Assembly: GCF_963675165.1 (NCBI RefSeq)
Contig: NC_087382.1
Location: forward strand, 2,271,567 to 2,335,566
From: Halichondria panicea
Lineage: Eukaryota; Porifera; Demospongiae; Suberitida; Halichondriidae
Length of the DNA: 64,000 nucleotides
Reading direction: 5' to 3'
Below are positions 1,955 to 16,350 of this stretch, one piece after another (position 1 is the stretch's first letter; each line of letters begins with the position of its first letter). The notes below the pieces were generated by a model. The model was given only the letters and a program-made list of their open reading frames with translations. It ran no database searches and had not been told where the DNA came from. The position numbers and the translations under genes were made by a program.

Positions 1955-2216
1955 GGTGATATTCTTTGATGAAGGGTTGTCTTGCATCGGCCATAATTAT
2001 GCCTTCAGGTGTAAAGTCAATCTCAGCACCTCGGAGATCGTAAAAGTACTGCTCGTGATCATGCAAGATTCGTAGGTGATGCTTGCATGCATGCATTTCA
2101 AATTTAAAGAAATGAGCAAGATCGGAACTCTTTAGGTCTTTTTGTTCAGTTCCCTCCCCCCTCGATTATTAGGTCAATCTCTTCCTCAATCTCTTCTTCA
2201 ATACTCCTCAATCATC
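1955..2216 (-). pseudogene. Inverted, broken fragment of the VioB-like gene
   Basis: Read on the minus strand, this stretch matches the 3' part of the VioB-like gene at about 7915-8160. Shared landmarks in the same order are the AACAAAAAGACC block, AAAGAGTTCCGATCTTGCTC, the CATCACCTACGAATCTTGCA block and CCGATGCAAGACAACCC. Relative to the gene it has small deletions (near 2150 and 2133), an extra ATGC step in a GCATGC tract near 2085, and a 4-bp AATT insertion near 1993 that makes an ATAATTAT palindrome. These destroy the frame. It lies about 170 bp upstream of the candidate first exon of the intact gene, in opposite orientation. It is most simply a decayed inverted partial duplicate. Confidence 0.85.
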
Positions 2217-2380: not shown

Positions 2381-5300
2381 ATGAAGACCAGCACTCACTG
2401 GCTCTGTTTATTCTTTTTCTGGTAAGTTATTATATCAATACCTAGACTAGATACTAGATCTACTACTGAGTGTTCTCTCAGTCGTAATTCTCCTATAATT
2501 ATAGATCTACACCTCCATGCAATAGATTTAGCAAGTTGCTCACCATCATCTATTTTGCTTATGTGAGTTTTTTAGTACAAGGGAAGGGGTACATTGTATA
2601 TAATCATAGGCAGTATCTCTCTGAGTTCAATAATTGGCTCAGGGACTGTACCGTATAGCAGGTAATTTTCGGGGGACAAAATATTCGTGGTTCAGCAATA
2701 TTGAGACATTTCGTGGGTAATATTTTCGTGATTGGAGCTTCAACCACGAAAACCACGAATATTTTGCCCCACGAAAATTACCTGCTATACGGTATATAGA
2801 TTATGCTAGTTTTTAGCGTAATAAGGTGCCACATTATAATAATTACACTGGTAAGGTGGCCGTATTAGGAGGTTGGAAAAGCTGTTTTTTTTATCTCCAA
2901 TTAGAAGGCGACCCTCTAAAGACAAGCCATCCAGCCTCAAAACTAATTTTCCAACCTCCTAATACAGCCACCTTTACCAGCGTAATTATTTTAATGTGGC
3001 GCCTTAAAAAAGCTTATACGGTAGGCACTTTCTTGGGGTGAGAATTATGCTGGCGTAATGAAAACCTTTATATAGAGAAAAATAGACAGGCGTTGGAAAC
3101 ACACGTCTGTCAGTAGTATCATATATGGGTAATTTCATCTCCTTGACATATACCGTATAGCGGGTTATTTTCGTATTGGTGATATATTTCGTATTGTAGA
3201 GCATCATAGAACTACGAAATTATTCTACTGCAATAGGTTCAACGTCACTATCCTGAGCTGTACGACTCTATGAAATATTTAAATGGGTAGTTCATACGAA
3301 ATTTCCACCACCGAAAATTACCCGCTATATGATACCATAATTATTAACTATAGTGCAAACATGCATGTGCATATTTTTGTAATTTTCACATCACATGTGC
3401 ATGCACGTGGCCAATATTGTTATACTTGTGTGACATCATATGCAAAGATGGTATGTTGTGCTCGTGGAATACACACTGCATGCATGAGGAATAATGGGGC
3501 AATTTGAAAATAATAATAATAAGTTATTGACACTTTATTGAGTAATCTACCCAAGGCCTATAACTCAGGAATCTGGAAGCTTACCTAATTGCTGTGAAGT
3601 AGACACTAATTACAATGACATTCCGTTTGAAATCGATATGCCACGGCTGACTATAACCGGTAATTAGATACTGTTTTGGTGCAGCAATTCTAGGTATTAC
3701 AGTGCTTTTATGCATCTTTGCAACAAGCCGTATCACATAGTAAACCACAAATAGTAAACATGCAAACCACAGGCTGCTACAGGCCACACTGGTGTATCAT
3801 CCTCCACCTCATGTCCTTACTGTAAGCCTTAGATCTTAAATTTATTGAACACATCCTTTAAGCAGCTCATCAACAAGACAACATCACTATTTCTCAAATT
3901 CCAAATTTCCCTCCTTTAATAATAAGGTCAAGTACAGCCTGTACCCTGTGGTTTGTATTTGTGGTTTACAATGCGATACCAGCTTGTTGCAAAGGTGCAT
4001 AAAAGCACTGTATTTGGAAGTGTTGTTCATTTCACATTAGTCTCTACAGTGGCGTAGCCAGGGGGTGGCAAAGGAGGCAATTGCCCCCCCCCTTTTTTCT
4101 GGATCTCTACTACCAGTCTCAGCTCTAGATAGCTACATTCTTTGTGTCTCTATTAGTAATTATTGAATTAACAGTTACACGCATGTGCAAACAAAATAAT
4201 ACAGGTGGGGGGCATTGCAGAATGCTTCTCTGTGTGGGTGTGATTGCATGCTCCTCTGTGTGGGTGTGATTGCATGCTCACATTTGGCCACAAGTGTGCA
4301 ATATTGGGTCCATGTGGCATAACCAAGAATCACATTCACAATGTCTCAAACTCTGGATAAATTCTTTAAGCCACAGAAGCTAACTCTCAATCAAGGTATA
4401 TCCAACTTTCTTATAGTGACAATAACTATATCTATGCTAGCCTCCACTGAAATTATTTTGCTGATGACAGGAAGTGAAATTTAACCACAACTAATTAAAA
4501 AAGGGTGTGGCTTCCGTCCAAAAATTTTCTGGCCTAGCGGCTTTGCCCAGCTAGGTGTTTGCCCCCTCTTTCTGGCTATGCTTCTGCTCTACACAAGGGT
4601 ATCGAAACTATCCGCTTTACAGTGGAACCTCCCATAACGGACCCCTCCCACCAGAGGAGAACCTTCTATACAAGACGTTAGCTATGGCACGGATTGAAAT
4701 CACTATAATAATTATAAGTACACAAAAGCAGCCTCCCACGAGCGCACCTTCTTGATTCAGGACAGCTCCCAACTGACCAACTGTGCAAAACTGCCTCTTA
4801 TTACGGAAAACCATAAAACCACACCCACATTTATATCTTAATGTATTGCTAATCATACTGGCATACTATTGGCCAGAGTACTTCTCAGAAGATTTCTTTG
4901 AGCATCAGCTTGTAAGCCTCAATTGAAACGCGGATGTATATTATTCGAGGGTATAATTATATACAATCGCTCTCTTTCCTGGGTAGACTATGTAGTATGC
5001 ATGTAGTGCGCCATGCATGTGTAATAGTCACTGTATAATAAACTTGAGGGAGTGTATAATTATATATAGTGTTGGGACTGGCAGCGAAGGCAAGTCCCTC
5101 ATCATTGTTGTGCTTAAATTGTACAGGTTTGAACTTGCAAGTGCATCCTTCTTAGAAAAACCAAGGATTAACTTTTCTGGTCGATTTAGAGCAGATGTGT
5201 CCACACTGAACAATGGACCAACAAACTATGAGAAAGTCATGGAAGGAGAAGAAATTGTGGTGAAAAAATTTAACCCAGGAGGAACAAATACTTTCACAAT

Positions 5301-8300
5301 GATAGACTGCAGAGTCACTTCTGTAGTACTAGAAAATGGCTTGGCTATTGAAGACGAAATCATTGGTGAATTAATTGTGATTAATCCCGAGTCCTCTCTT
5401 CCAAAATTAATTACCCTTGATCCAGATCAACAAGATACTTCCAGTATTTACGGGATGAAGTTGGGTGTGAATTGGAGTATGCTAAGCAATAATGCTTTTA
5501 TTGGAGATTTTGTTCTTGCCATGCTCGAACGTGATTCCTGGTTTCGTCAAGCCAACTCCACAGATCCAGATAAGTACTGTGTTGACAAAAAAATCCAATG
5601 CTTAGCAGCCCACAGTGTTTCAAAACTTGTCAATGTTCAATGGTCGAAACAGTTGACTTCCAATGCTCTCAGATCTTTGAAAGAACACACACACAAGGAC
5701 AAGGAAGATGGATACACTCTTTCAATTATGTTAACGCTGTATAACTACAATAGGATGCCAGAAGAGCCTTGGTTTCTATATGGCAGCATAGTTGGCAGTA
5801 TCGGCATTTCGTCAGCTGGTGAGTCATTATCATTTCCCGAGAACAGAGTTATGAAGGCCATTAATAATATCCCTGTACCTGTTCCATCTTGGAGCCCGCT
5901 GTGTGCACTCATTAGTAATTTCACTACTACCACCTACTTTGATGTGTTTGGGTCAACCTTGGCAATTGATTTTAGCAACTCCATACCGATCGATACCAAC
6001 GGAGAACTTTGTCACCTCTACCGACTATTTGTATGTATTCTTGTGGATGATCAAGTTACTGTTGAACTTGTTGGTGAGCTTCCTTACATGGAAAAAGATT
6101 GGTACAAAATGACATCGGGCATTCAAGATTTTGAACTTACTGATCAGCAATTGAAATTTGTTCAAAAACGGAAAGTTATTGCAGTGTTTTTCAAGGCAAA
6201 GCCTGTTGAAAATACTTTGAAGCAAGGTGATCGATACCCAGTCTGTGACAATAACACTTTGTCCACTTCAAACTGTGTTTATATTATTCTCAGCGAGGAT
6301 CCGTACTTAGTAGCCCCAATGGACCATACGAATTACAGGCTCGAAAAAGGAGACTCTGCTGAAGCTAGACTAAAAGTGAGACACTACGGCGTTCAGCCGA
6401 GTGAGAAGCTCTCCCTATCCCTCTGTGACGTTAGCCCCAATGGCGATGCTACAAACTCGGACCTTAAATATACCCGCACACAGACAACCGGTAAAGATGG
6501 TATTGCCATATTTTATTTCGTAGCAGGTGATGTTGGAACTCCAAGAAAATATATTGACGGCCAGGTCTTTATATTCAACTACTGTGTTTGTGAGCAATGT
6601 GAGAAGATGAATTGTCAGCAGTGTTCAGTAAATGTAGGAAACACATTGTCATTCCTTGTGTGGAGTCATATGAAATACAAGAGACCGTATTTCTGGGACA
6701 CGCATGTAAAGCCAATCTTTTTTCAGTACCAGAAATTGTACCCAGTAATGAATAGTATTCTGAAACTCGGCGATTATGAAGCTGTAACAAAACCACGAAA
6801 TATCGATATGATTCTTTTCACAATGTCTATGGATATCAACCACCCAAGCTACATGCCAGCGTCTAGAGATCTCTCACCTACAAAAAAAGAAATGATCATA
6901 GAATGGTTGAGAACTGAAGACCACCCTCTAAATTGGGATACTCTGATTGAGAAGGAATATGAAATACCAAGTTTCTGCAATAGATCCTATTTATTTTATC
7001 GCGAGAAGCTGAGAAAGGAACTGGTGACAGAGAAATCACTCTCTTGGATCAAGAATTTCCCTAAAAATGAGTATGTAGCCATACTTTTGGATGGTTTAGG
7101 AGAAGATTCACTGCCAACGCTTGCAGAATCAGAGATAGCGCAATCCTTTTCTAAAGTTTCCACGGTCATAGAACAATCACATACCCAAACTCTCAAAGAA
7201 TGGAAAAATGATTTGTTCATTAGACGTACTATTGATGTGTTAAAAAATCGAGATCACTTAACAGATTCGTATATTGAAGCTCTGCTTTCTATGGTTCTAA
7301 AACTATCTAATGACGATAGCAATTCTCTTCCTAGTTGGTACACAAGCTCCCACTGCTCAAAAAGACAGCTAAAAGAAAATTTACAAATAGCTCTACAATT
7401 AGAATTTTCCACCATTCCTCCATACTTAACTGCTCTCTACTCTATCAAGGACGGGTACAATCAAGAGGCATACGAAATCATACGCTCAGTTGTAATGCAA
7501 GAAATGCTTCACATGGCACAAGCGGCCAATCTGCTCATTGCTATCGGTGGACGGCCAATAATAGACAGTGCACAGGTTGCCCCATCTTACCCCGGGAAGA
7601 TACCGGGAGGAGTGTTACCTGGTCTCAATGTAACACTACAGAAAGCATCTCCCAAGTATATTGCTGACGTGTTCATGATGATAGAATTCCCAAATGAATT
7701 GGTTTACGAAGACTCTTTTTCTAACAAAGAGAAAGAAATTAAGTCTCATGTGCTTACAATTGGAAAGTTTTATAAGAACATTCAACAGTGTATGATTGAA
7801 CTGTATGAAAAAGAAGGAGAAAATTTCTTTGACAAAGAAGCCAAGCAAATGACCTGGCCTTGGACAGCGCATGAAGATGGTATTAAGCTCGTAACTGTGA
7901 GCAGTATTGAAGAAGCCATTGACGCCATTAACGTGATAATTGAGGAGGGAGAGGGAACTGAACAAAAAGACCCTACTTATTTAAAGAGTTCCGATCTTGC
8001 TCATTTCTTTAAATTTGAAATGCTTGCATGCAAGCATCACCTACGAATCTTGCATGATCACGAGCAGTACTTTTACGATCTCCGAGGTGCTGAGATTGAG
8101 TTTACACCTGAAGGCATATGGCCGATGCAAGACAACCCGTCATCAAAGAATATCCCAAAAAATTCTCATTTATACCATGAAGCAAAAATATTTCACGACG
8201 TGTATCGATCTCTATTAAGGTCACTTCAAGCAGCCTTCAATGGACAACCAGATGCTATTAAAGAATCCGTTCCTCTTATGTCAAGCATGCAAATCCAAGC

Positions 8301-8394
8301 TAAGAAGCTGATGGCCATGGAAATGCCTTCTTCCCTACCTGGGCAGCCTAAGCAAACTTGTGGACCTATTTTTGACTATGATTGGCAGATATAA
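2381..8394 (+). CDS. VioB/RebD-type iminophenyl-pyruvate dimer synthase homologue with ferritin-like domain
   Basis: Exon 2 is 5127-8394, a single open frame of about 1089 codons. The splice acceptor TTGTACAG precedes it. A phase-matched candidate exon 1 is 2381-2421: ATG, 13 codons, then TG/GTAAGT. It encodes a hydrophobic leader MKTSTHWLCLFFF, giving about 1102 residues in all. Exon 1 is a proposal; the frame is also open back to 5017. Soon after the start comes FLEKPRINFSGRF followed by DVSTLNNGPTNY, typical of the VioB N-terminus. Near 7350-7560 lies the ferritin-like domain with QLEFSTIPPYL and the metal-site motif QEMLHMAQ. Near 8000-8040 a second helix reads HFFKFEMLACKHHL. Length is close to the roughly 1000-residue bacterial VioB. 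In bacteria this family couples indole-3-pyruvate imines on the way to violacein or rebeccamycin. The substrate here is unknown. No RebO/VioA-like oxidase is visible nearby. A half-palindrome GCACATGCGCACA lies about 50 bp before exon 1. Confidence 0.85.
2649..2795. mobile_element. MITE, CCGTATAGC(A/G)GGTAATTTTCG family, copy 1
   Basis: Terminal inverted repeats begin ACCGTATAGCAGGTAATTTTCG and end with the reverse complement CGAAAATTACCTGCTATACGG. The interior contains further inverted ATATTCGTGG blocks. It lies in the large intron proposed for the VioB-like gene. Related copies are at 22082-22290 and 25257-25468. Confidence 0.85.
2822..3006. mobile_element. MITE with about 60-bp terminal inverted repeats (TAAGG(T/C)GCCACATTA)
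   Basis: The left end TAAGGTGCCACATTATAAT mirrors the right end, whose reverse complement starts TAAGGCGCCACATTAAAAT. The arms continue through ACGCTGGTAAAGGTGGC and GTATTAGGAGGTTGGAAAA. The small ORF across it is a by-product of the repeat. Confidence 0.85.
3151..3336. mobile_element. MITE, CCGTATAGCGGGTTATTTTCG family
   Basis: The left end ACCGTATAGCGGGTTATTTTCG is mirrored by CGAAAATTACCCGCTATA at the right. The interior block ATTCTACTGCAATAG..TTCAAC is shared with the copy at 11669-11842. A partial relative is at 32920-33075. Confidence 0.8.
4047..4586. mobile_element. hAT-like non-autonomous element, CAGTGGCGTAGCC ends
   Basis: The left end CAGTGGCGTAGCCAGGGGG and a C-rich continuation are mirrored on the right, whose reverse complement begins CAGAAGCATAGCCAG. 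CAG..GGCGTAGCCAG ends are typical of hAT elements. No transposase is encoded. An exact 8-bp target duplication was not found, although CTCTAC occurs at both edges. Confidence 0.6.
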
Positions 8395-13550: not shown

Positions 13551-16350
13551 TAGCCATAACTCGAGAAAGAAGCTTTAATGCTAAATCCACAAATCAAAAT
13601 CCAAAAGAACGTGGCTAAAAGCCTATAGAAGCTTTTAGTTTTCGTCGCATTGCAACTGTTGAGCATGCAGTTACAGCTGGAACAGACACACAGACACACA
13701 CACACACAGTCAGCTTTACCGTATCCCTTGTGCGGCTACGCTTCGAGGCATAATTATACAAGTTATTGTCCACATCAGCATTTCAATACACAGCCAAAAA
13801 TCCACGGGCCGTTTCATGCCTGTTACGGGCCCGTTACAGGTATAAATCCACGCGGTGTATTCAACTGTTTGGTTAGATACTGTTTAGCAGCCTGTGGATT
13901 TCAGCATGTAATCAGCCGTGGAACGGGCTGTAAGCAGCCTGAGCACGGCCTGTAAGCAGCGCTATGTTCTCAGTTAGTTCCGGTTTGCTTTTATACAGTT
14001 AAAAGCTGAGTTTGGCATGAATAATTCAACGAAGTGTTAAAATTTTTAAGAAACAAACATAGCCAGACAGTTCGACAGTTTACAACACTAATAGGAATGT
14101 TTCTTCTAGTGCTTGTGCTGCTCGAGTGTGTCACTGTGTGTATAAAGAAGACACGTGAATAATGGTTGGAAAGAAAATAATGTTTCTTACATTTATAAAT
14201 TTTCTGTTTGACTGTTTGTACTACCAGCCATGTCCTCTGTCACAATGTGTGTATAAAGAAGACATGTGAATATCGTTGCAAAGAAAATAATGTTTCTTAC
14301 CAATATAATGTGTTGTTCGACTGTTCGTACTGTCCACAGACCAGCCATGTCCTCTGTCACTGTGTATATAGTGAATATCGTTGCAAAGAAAATAATGTTT
14401 CTTACCAATATAATGTGTTGTTCGACTGTTCGTACTGTCCACAGACCAGCCATGTCCTCTGTCACTGTGTATATAGTGAATATCGTTGCAAAGAAAATAA
14501 TGTTTCTTACCAATATAATGTGTTGTTCGACTGTTCGTACTGTCCACAGACCAGCCATGTCCTCTGTCACTGTGTATATAGTGAATATCGTTGCAAAGAA
14601 AATAATGTTTCTTACCAATATAATGTGTTGTTTGACTGTTCGTACTGTCCACAGACCAGCCATGTCCTCTGTCACTGTGTATATAGTGAATATGGTTGCA
14701 AAGAAAATAATGTTTCTTACCATTATACATTTTTTGTTTGACTGTTTGTACTGTCACAGACCAGCCATGTCCACAGCCAGTAACTTAACTAAAGCAAAAC
14801 ACAAACAAAGTTTTTATAATTATTATGAATGATTGCTTACCTGCCAAATTCTGATAGTTCCTAAAGTATAGGTGTGTCCACGATGCTGTAATTAGACCAA
14901 CCAATGTAAACGACAATAATTATTATTGTAAAATACCTTCTGGTCATGATGGGTTGAAATCATTGATGGCATGAGCATTCCAATTTATATATGTACATCT
15001 GTATGTGTGCATCAGTACACGAGTTTAAAGTGAGTTAAATAATTATTAATTGGCTCACATTCTCAAGTAGTGTGACAAGGAACCTCAATCTCGAGCTCAA
15101 TCAGTACAGTAATGATGACATAGACACAGGTACATCTGTGTGTGCATACATACGTAAACGAGTTCGAGTAAGTGAGTCAATAATAGAACCTGAATCTCGA
15201 GCTCGTAAAGTAATGATGACACAATATCATAGGTATACATTTTATATACCTCGTACTCACTTATATAGTAGTCGTTGTAGAGGTCCTTTTTAGATGTGTA
15301 TTCCTATACATAAGCAGCATATTGACCAACATTTTAAAAACCAGCTGAGCACTCACTTATATTAAACGTTGTAGAAGAAGTCAACAACCTGCGTCAGAGG
15401 CAACCAGATCTGCAATACGAAATAACTCCGTCAACATAATTATTTATACATTACCACATAAGCACACCTTGTAGCCTATAGAGCTAGACTCCTAGAGACA
15501 GTGAAAGAAGAATTGCAGAGACATCTAGCAGCTGACAAATGGACAGAAGTGAGTATTAATTAGACCTACTATACTAGCTCCTTATTTAGACTCTACTTAC
15601 TTCCTCTCTCTCTCTTTTCTTGCTAGCTGGCCTTGGCAGTCAGCTCCATAAATAATATAATTACTCCATCCATCCTTTAAAGCTGCAACTGAACGAGAAC
15701 ATCAAACTGAAGCACCTTTTCAGTCTCTTGGTGGATTTTGTAGCTAAGCAACTTTCTCTCTGCGCATGCGCATACACTGGCTGCACAGGCTGTAAGCAGG
15801 ACGTGGGTGGTACAGGCTGAAACAGGCCCGTTATTTACGGTCCGTATTCAGGACAGGATGTACGTGCTGTAACAGGCCTGTGGTTCCAGGATGTAAGCGG
15901 GCCGTGGGCGATTACATCCGCATACAGGCCCGTATTCCGGCCTGTATTCAACTGATTTTCCCCACGGGCCTGAAACAGGCCTGTGGATTTTTGGCTGTGT
16001 ATGCCAGGGAGATAATGATAAATGCGCTAACCACATTTTTCTAGTTGCTATATATGATACAGATGGCACTTACTGCCTTGACAACCACACGTTCGAATAA
16101 CGGCCGCGGATAATTTTTTTACTAAAACTGCTGCTAAAAATGTTATTATGCCTCGAGGCGTAGCCGCACGAGGGATACGGTAAAGCTGACTGTGTGTGTG
16201 TTTGTGTGTCTGTGTGTCTGTTCCAGCTGTAACTGCTCAACGGTTGCAATGCGACGAAAACTAACAGCTTCTATAGGCTTCTAGCCACGTTCTCTTGGAT
16301 TTTGATTCGTGGATTAGCAAACTAAAGCTTCTTTCTCGAGTTATGGCTAG
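13551..16350. mobile_element. 2.8-kb long-terminal-inverted-repeat element or foldback
   Basis: The arm 13551-13755 begins TAGCCATAACTCGAGAAAGAAG and includes a CA tract and GTAGCCGCAC..GCATAATT. It is mirrored at 16143-16350. Inside these, 13788-13960 and 15785-16002 are again inverted relative to each other (GGCCTGTGGATTTTTGGCTGTG and repeated ACAGGCC/GGCCCGT words). No transposase ORF is visible between the arms. The centre holds the 105-bp minisatellite. The right arm continues as a family copy to about 16500, which recurs at 42985-43375. Confidence 0.7.
14171..14775. repeat. Minisatellite, 105-bp unit, four near-perfect plus partial copies
   Basis: Unit starts (TTGCAAAGAAAATAATG) fall at 14276, 14381, 14486, 14591 and 14696, exactly 105 bp apart. 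Because 105 is a multiple of three, overlapping open frames appear on both strands. These are artefacts, not genes. Confidence 0.95.

Follow-up and report, generated by a model that had tools for sequence, protein, structure and literature searches.

A predicted two-exon sponge gene family for secreted VioB-like and ferritin-like proteins, putatively acquired from bacteria

Gene structure and domain architecture

We analyzed a 64,000-nucleotide stretch of the genome of the demosponge Halichondria panicea (contig NC_087382.1, positions 2,271,567 to 2,335,566; hereafter the window), whose forward strand contains a gene with a predicted product that combines a VioB-like N-terminal domain with a ferritin-like domain of the PF12902 family (Table 1). 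An original prediction, made from the letters of this stretch, had described a 3.3-kb exon with VioB-type N-terminal motifs and ferritin-like metal motifs, and the open frame, the motifs and a profile match all confirm it. A single open frame spans the exon, with 1088 codons counted from 5128 (5128-8391, encoding 1088 amino acids, with a TAA stop at 8392-8394; the frame from stop to stop is 1132 amino acids long). The motifs quoted earlier are present in its translation, including the N-terminal motif SFLEKPRINFSGRF...STLNNGP near its start. The PF12902 profile matches residues 752-966 of the protein (P0001) with E=1.8e-55 and 188.6 bits, against a curated cut-off of 22.3 bits, and blastp comparisons of the N-terminal domain with bacterial N-proteins in a small set of open reading frames gave E-values of 3e-33 to 2e-48.

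Table 1. Features of the gene and of its immediate upstream region, in window coordinates
Feature	Position	Strand	Basis
Decayed antisense fragment of the 3' coding region of the same gene	1958..2210	-	88% identity over 264 columns; 137 nucleotides at 99%
Exon 1 (41 nucleotides), signal-peptide-like leader MKTSTHWLCLFFFW; ends with two bases of a split tryptophan (Trp) codon	2381..2421	+	donor gtaagt
Phase-2 intron, 2705 nucleotides	2422..5126	+	GT-AG; acceptor phase and position common to 8/8 copies
Exon 2, with most of the coding sequence and the TAA stop	5127..8394	+	open frame; ratio of nonsynonymous to synonymous substitution (dN/dS)
End of predicted signal peptide, W/FELASA; proposed cleavage after ASA, before SFLEKPRINF	5127..5145	+	predicted cleavage site
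N-terminal VioB-like domain (P0001 residues 7-612)	5146..6963	+	blastp, hhalign
Linker of about 130 amino acids, variable between paralogues, short or absent in bacterial rows	6964..7353	+	two alignments
Ferritin-like domain PF12902, invariant E759/E792/H795/E853/E942/H959 (P0001 numbering)	7381..8025	+	profile match, ligand alignment

An intact family of eight copies

The gene had been treated as a single one; a search of the genome (131.46 Mb in 39 contigs) with the PF12902 profile instead returned exactly eight places, all above the 22.3-bit cut-off, and these correspond to eight full-length intact copies on five contigs. Exon 2 of the other seven copies is 89, 89, 60, 59, 53, 45 and 45% identical to that of the copy in the window (C6; the others are C14a, C14b, C11a, C11b, C3a, C3b and C1). 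The frames are open in all eight. For 11 of the 28 paralogue pairs dS could be estimated, which gave dN/dS values of 0.16-0.33; the family is under purifying selection. The guanine-plus-cytosine (GC) content of the copies, 0.39-0.43, is similar to that of the window.

Decayed relatives of the family are also present in the genome. Two fragments on contig C6 (at 4.427 and 4.466 Mb; L033 6056-6451 and L034 5925-6319) are separated by about 39 kb and retain the same three pieces. The antisense fragment listed in Table 1 sits about 170 nucleotides upstream of the start codon, and an RNA whose transcription started before it could fold back on itself. The stretches fetched around the other seven copies contained no comparable antisense match.

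The leader exon and the predicted signal peptide

The original prediction had also proposed that a mini-exon at 2381-2421 is phase-compatible with 5127. Its splice sites read ATGAAG...TTCTG/gtaagt at 2381-2421 and ttgtacag/GTTTG at 5126/5127, and joining it to 5127 preserves the frame with the joined reading MKTSTHWLCLFFFWFELASASFLEKPRINF, such that the N-terminus of this copy up to the start of the domain would be MKTSTHWLCLFFFWFELASA followed by SFLEKP. The paralogues provide comparative support for this arrangement. An AG acceptor is found at the same codon and in the same phase 2 in every copy, and the intron measures 122-1240 nucleotides in the six other paralogues with a proposed leader exon, or 122-2705 nucleotides overall. 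A strict scan upstream of each copy for mini-exons with a GT[AG]AG donor, phase 2 and an open frame found four candidates for the gene in the window and one or two per paralogue. Among these are the leaders MKTSTHWLCLFFFW, MKTSTPWLYLFIIW, MKTSTHWWLCLFICW, MKVFYLSCCLCLW, MKVLYLSCCLYFW and MQGDRSLLLLLAW, all of which end in an intron-split Trp codon; a hydrophobic leader, a canonical donor and a split Trp junction are thus found together in six of the eight genes. In a control with Markov sequences (300 per gene, 3 kb upstream, of matched make-up) the frequency of hydrophobic leaders that end in a Trp junction was no higher than 1.3% for any gene, the Trp criterion having been set only after the leaders had been inspected. 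DNA similarity between C6 and the C14a and C14b copies peaks from the ATG to about 10 nucleotides past the end of exon 1, with a single in-frame insertion of 3 nucleotides.

Translation might instead begin in exon 2 or elsewhere, with a spurious exon 1 and a different N-terminus. This is favored by an in-frame ATG at 5017 in the present copy and by in-frame ATGs in the exon 2 open frame of C14a, C14b and C1, the last of which would place MIDLIYTLLLYR before FQLAAA without any splicing. Also weighing against the leader exon are the leader of C1 (MHKFQWVQLLVLLW), which requires a gtaggt donor and was picked from 29 relaxed candidates, and the homologous leader exon of C3a, which joins to a TAG codon. 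However, the exon 2 frames of C11a, C11b, C3a and C3b hold no ATG ahead of the acceptor, and because of this exon 2 could not be translated alone in these four copies. On this ground the ATG at 5017 was rejected as the start for the family, and given also the conserved acceptor, leader and donor and the random control, we consider a spurious exon 1 very improbable. The upstream mini-exon is very probably a real leader exon, as had been guessed from the window.

Two observations concern the leader and the intron more locally. Despite the TAG at its leader junction, C3a (L030) has an intact exon 2 that is 93% identical to that of C3b. Within the intron of the window copy lies a 44-nucleotide inverted repeat (2649-2794; 95% identity, 58 nucleotides between the arms; TACCGTATAGCAGGTAATTTTCG...), which looks like a small mobile element; similar sequence occurs upstream of C3a and C1.

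Because the bacterial relatives begin MS[YF]L, the S encoded at 5146 corresponds to bacterial residue 2, and in the alignment the leader plus FxLASA ends exactly ahead of this residue. A hydrophobic leader followed by a small-x-small cleavage site was recognized by eye in six of the eight copies, the residue at -3 being Leu in the C11 pair. Cysteine makes up 1.4-1.9% of the eight copies but 0.64% of 22 pooled bacterial chains. All eight copies share ten invariant cysteines, as expected for a disulfide-bonded secreted protein. A point that weighs against secretion is that N-glycosylation sequons are not clearly enriched (3-7 per copy versus up to 9 per bacterial pair). Taken together, comparison between the copies gives strong support to a predicted, spliced N-terminal signal peptide.

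Relationship to VioB

The protein matches the NCBIfam VioB model (TIGR04492), the iminophenyl-pyruvate dimer synthase profile that had been suggested as a check, with 16.4 bits (E 0.0015). This is far below its equivalog cut-off of 1250, whereas the C-terminal half of Chromobacterium subtsugae VioB scores 1020.9 against the same profile. When a profile of the eight copies was aligned with VioB using hhalign, the match had Prob 93.9 and E 1.5e-7 over 700 aligned columns and was colinear, residues 7-953 pairing with VioB 2-829 and both the N-terminal and the ferritin-like parts being covered. VioB shares with the sponge protein the order of the parts, the N-terminal motif, a YMPxxR(D/E)LS motif and the candidate ligand set, but it has no leader in front of its MSILDFPRF start; of VioB, RebD and StaD, the direct comparison was made with VioB.

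We constructed separate trees for the two domains, both rooted for drawing only. For the C-domain tree identical rows and rows shorter than 250 amino acids were dropped, and VioB is absent from it, having no match to the C-profile derived from the eight copies; for the N-domain tree rows shorter than 480 amino acids and contained duplicates were dropped, and VioB is represented by one sequence. The eight copies form one group in both (support 100/100 in the C-domain and 100/99 in the N-domain tree). The N-domain tree places VioB and a single Gloeothece protein outside a group that unites the eight copies with the bacterial cassette proteins described below (100/99). In the C-domain tree the copies lie inside a group (98/98) that also contains every one of the 20 N-partnered bacterial rows; their nearest relatives, with weak support (82/94), are three rows from actinobacteria, two of these from Actinomadura, for which no N partner was detected. 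We rejected orthology with VioB because of both the score and the tree position. Judged from these comparisons, the protein is a VioB homologue at the superfamily level only and a member of a sister, often ebo-linked, bacterial family; the VioB/RebD assignment of the original prediction should be shifted to that family. Its suggestion of a bacterial-type origin is supported within the genomes sampled, as the copies group among bacterial sequences in both trees.

Several properties of the trees weigh against a firm reading of this origin. The stem branches are long (1.12 and 1.56), and the tree program warned of long-branch attraction in the N-domain tree, flagging long branches and uneven composition, including those of C3a and C3b. 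Moreover, they were sampled from bacterial homologues and the eight copies, every searchable relative being bacterial.

Bacterial cassettes and their ebo neighborhoods

In bacteria the counterpart is a two-gene cassette of a hypothetical protein with an MS[YF]L start and a ferritin-like protein, found in Chromobacterium, Mycetohabitans, Aureibacter and Gloeothece, and in fused form in Streptomyces sp. NRRL F-2580. Most bacteria have the two halves as neighboring genes, and the N-terminal VioB-like domain is encoded by a gene of its own in 19 of the 20 N-partnered rows of the C-domain tree set. Both parts are homologous to those of the sponge protein (about 27-38% identity), occur in the same order and carry the same motifs and candidate ligands. 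The sponge gene differs in encoding one fused chain with an extra linker, in its leader exon and intron, in its higher cysteine content, in its eight copies and in the lack of a dehydroquinate (DHQ) synthase in the genome.

Bacterial and archaeal genomes scanned by pattern yielded ten loci. Seven of them, from Chromobacterium (five), Streptomyces sp. NRRL F-2580 and Caulobacter ginsengisoli, match over most of the length, and the other three in the C-terminal part only. Among plasmids 166 records match, and at least six cover 80% or more of the query in one place; seven of the records were examined. Any match to the family was seen in 12 of 299 sampled genomes of the Chromobacterium phylum and in 8 of 296 of the Streptomyces phylum, and these whole-genome samples suggest that the family is sparse. 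A scan of viral contigs for the family found no match.

In several phyla the VioB-like N gene and the ferritin-like gene stand beside ebo genes (L001-L006, L012-L014, L017). We checked a subset of the loci obtained, namely 16 with an N partner, including six from Chromobacterium (L001, L003-L006, L107), three from Azospirillum and two from Mycetohabitans, and six others. The ebo queries were taken from L013 and L014, which match themselves, the annotation of both being independent; the names EboE, EboA and EboC are those of the record annotation. Ebo genes were present in the fetched stretch at ten of the N-partnered loci (eight with all six genes, one with four and one with two) and at none of the six loci that lack an N partner. 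The word 'ferritin' is absent from the main text of two ebo papers. At one Mycetohabitans locus (L017 2495-5556; this Mycetohabitans was isolated from Rhizopus microsporus) a LodA/GoxA cysteine tryptophylquinone oxidase and a tryptophan 7-halogenase are encoded upstream of the cassette.

Some results weigh against the explanation favored below. Six of the 16 N-partnered loci have no ebo gene in the stretch, which at L107 is only 5 kb long. Whole-genome searches of the sponge with the DHQ synthase (eboD) profile and with LodA_N gave no match, eboD being the one of the six ebo genes covered. Co-transfer of eboD or of a LodA oxidase was rejected, as neither was found in the genome; these two partners from bacteria, at least, were therefore not retained, and the reaction may differ.

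Candidate metal site and possible chemistry

The candidate ligands E759, E792, H795, E853, E942 and H959 do not vary among the eight copies, VioB and the 20 N-partnered bacterial rows, and are kept in 20 or 21 of the 21 other rows. Four-helix domains with a dinuclear metal center show this pattern, and we infer that these residues bind metal. Profile searches found 3hl1 (1.5e-25) as the best solved relative, along with the bacterioferritins 9viw and 1nf4; 3hl1 (317 amino acids) shares the ferritin-like domain, but its chain is too short for a VioB-like N-terminal part. Passages in PMC10851217 and PMC5476825 describe VioB/RebD-type enzymes as coupling two tryptophan imines, and by analogy the secreted sponge protein probably oxidizes or couples a small amino-acid-derived molecule. 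The same passages call RebD and VioB heme enzymes, which speaks against a diiron site, a reading that uses no heme.

Origin and function: weighing the explanations

The explanation we favor, with a confidence moderately above even, is that the locus represents a two-exon gene of animal type, one of eight, whose product is a secreted metal enzyme with two domains and a bacterial origin. Under this explanation a bacterial two-gene cassette would have been acquired once, either already fused or fused later, and would have gained a 5' exon coding for a signal peptide and been duplicated. The leader would direct the protein into the secretory pathway and be cut after ASA, such that the mature chain would start at bacterial residue 2 and be stabilized by disulfides. 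The C-terminal four-helix domain is predicted to bind a dinuclear metal, probably iron, through the six candidate ligands, and molecular oxygen (O2) or peroxide might be used to oxidize or couple a small amino-acid-derived substrate held together with the N-terminal domain, as VioB/RebD do with tryptophan imines.

Of the other explanations, the one we take most seriously, while considering it unlikely, is that the protein handles iron or peroxide outside the cell as a metal-binding or peroxide-scavenging protein without making a metabolite. The profile matches to 3hl1 and the bacterioferritins, the retention of all candidate ligands and the lack of DHQ synthase and LodA_N matches are compatible with such a scavenger, but the helix region is only partly covered by the bacterioferritin matches, the conserved N-terminal domain of about 600 amino acids would be left without a role, and the bacterial relatives are often placed beside ebo genes. 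Still less probable, in our estimate, is an older eukaryotic family or a transfer between eukaryotes, for instance through fungi, in place of a direct gift from bacteria. Parts of PMC4417212 report PF12902 genes beside lodA/lodB-like genes in fungi, and a section of a Schistosoma vesicle paper (PMC7563238) includes PF12902 among its domains, which we suspect is a label for an ordinary ferritin. The long stem branches and the bacterial sampling of the trees also leave room for this route, against which stand the exclusively bacterial searchable relatives and the grouping of the copies with the N-partnered bacterial rows.

We give slightly less weight again to a true VioB/RebD-type bisindole synthase that joins two imines derived from tryptophan into a pigment precursor. 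The two shared motifs, the ferritin-like ligands and the colinearity with VioB, and the one bacterial relative whose gene neighbors encode a LodA/GoxA oxidase and a tryptophan halogenase, are in accord with it; the low VioB score, set against that of a genuine VioB C-terminal half, and the position of VioB outside the group joining the eight copies with the bacterial cassette proteins argue against it. The chance that the gene is a contaminant or a non-functional remnant is practically negligible. Decayed family fragments do exist, but the gene sits inside a 7.6-Mb contig and adjoins PIGN (the neighbor at 4-1290, 6.9e-81), and the eight copies share the intron across five contigs. Contamination and a dead remnant were both excluded because the eight copies are open, their dN/dS is well below 1 and their GC content is host-like; the original prediction, which had judged contamination unlikely, was sound in this respect.

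Natural products from sponges are frequently ascribed to symbionts. If the favored explanation is true, a host-encoded and testable candidate becomes available: the animal may itself produce and secrete an enzyme whose family is known mainly from bacteria, a bacterial metal enzyme would have been turned into an animal secretory protein through the gain of a signal-peptide exon, and the eight copies would allow the steps to be traced. A further proposal is that an animal has its own secreted and expanded family of oxidative small-molecule enzymes, derived from bacterial ebo-linked clusters, that makes extracellular pigments or defensive metabolites otherwise credited to microbes; this we regard as speculative and rather doubtful. 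Separately, the recurrence of VioB-like pairs near ebo genes provides a clue to the cargo moved by some ebo clusters. Our searches of open-licence papers met no report of such an animal gene family, and the words 'ferritin' and 'violacein' are absent from the main text of a 2026 compendium of animal transfers. A partial precedent is Conaco et al. 2016 (PMC4784904), parts of which describe prokaryotic-type genes with introns in a sponge genome; it differs in that ferritin, VioB, violacein and signal peptide are absent from its main text.

Other features of the window

Tyrosine-kinase, Sushi and immunoglobulin (Ig) domains are encoded elsewhere in the window, consistent with an animal genome. 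Repeated exons for these three domains at 34138-62403 look like a tandem receptor-kinase family, and a kinase-like frame is also found upstream of the C14 pair (L027 8603-8980). At 14193-14832 there is a tandem repeat (MVRNIIFFATIFTIYTVTEDMAGLWTVRT... repeated) with long open frames on both strands.

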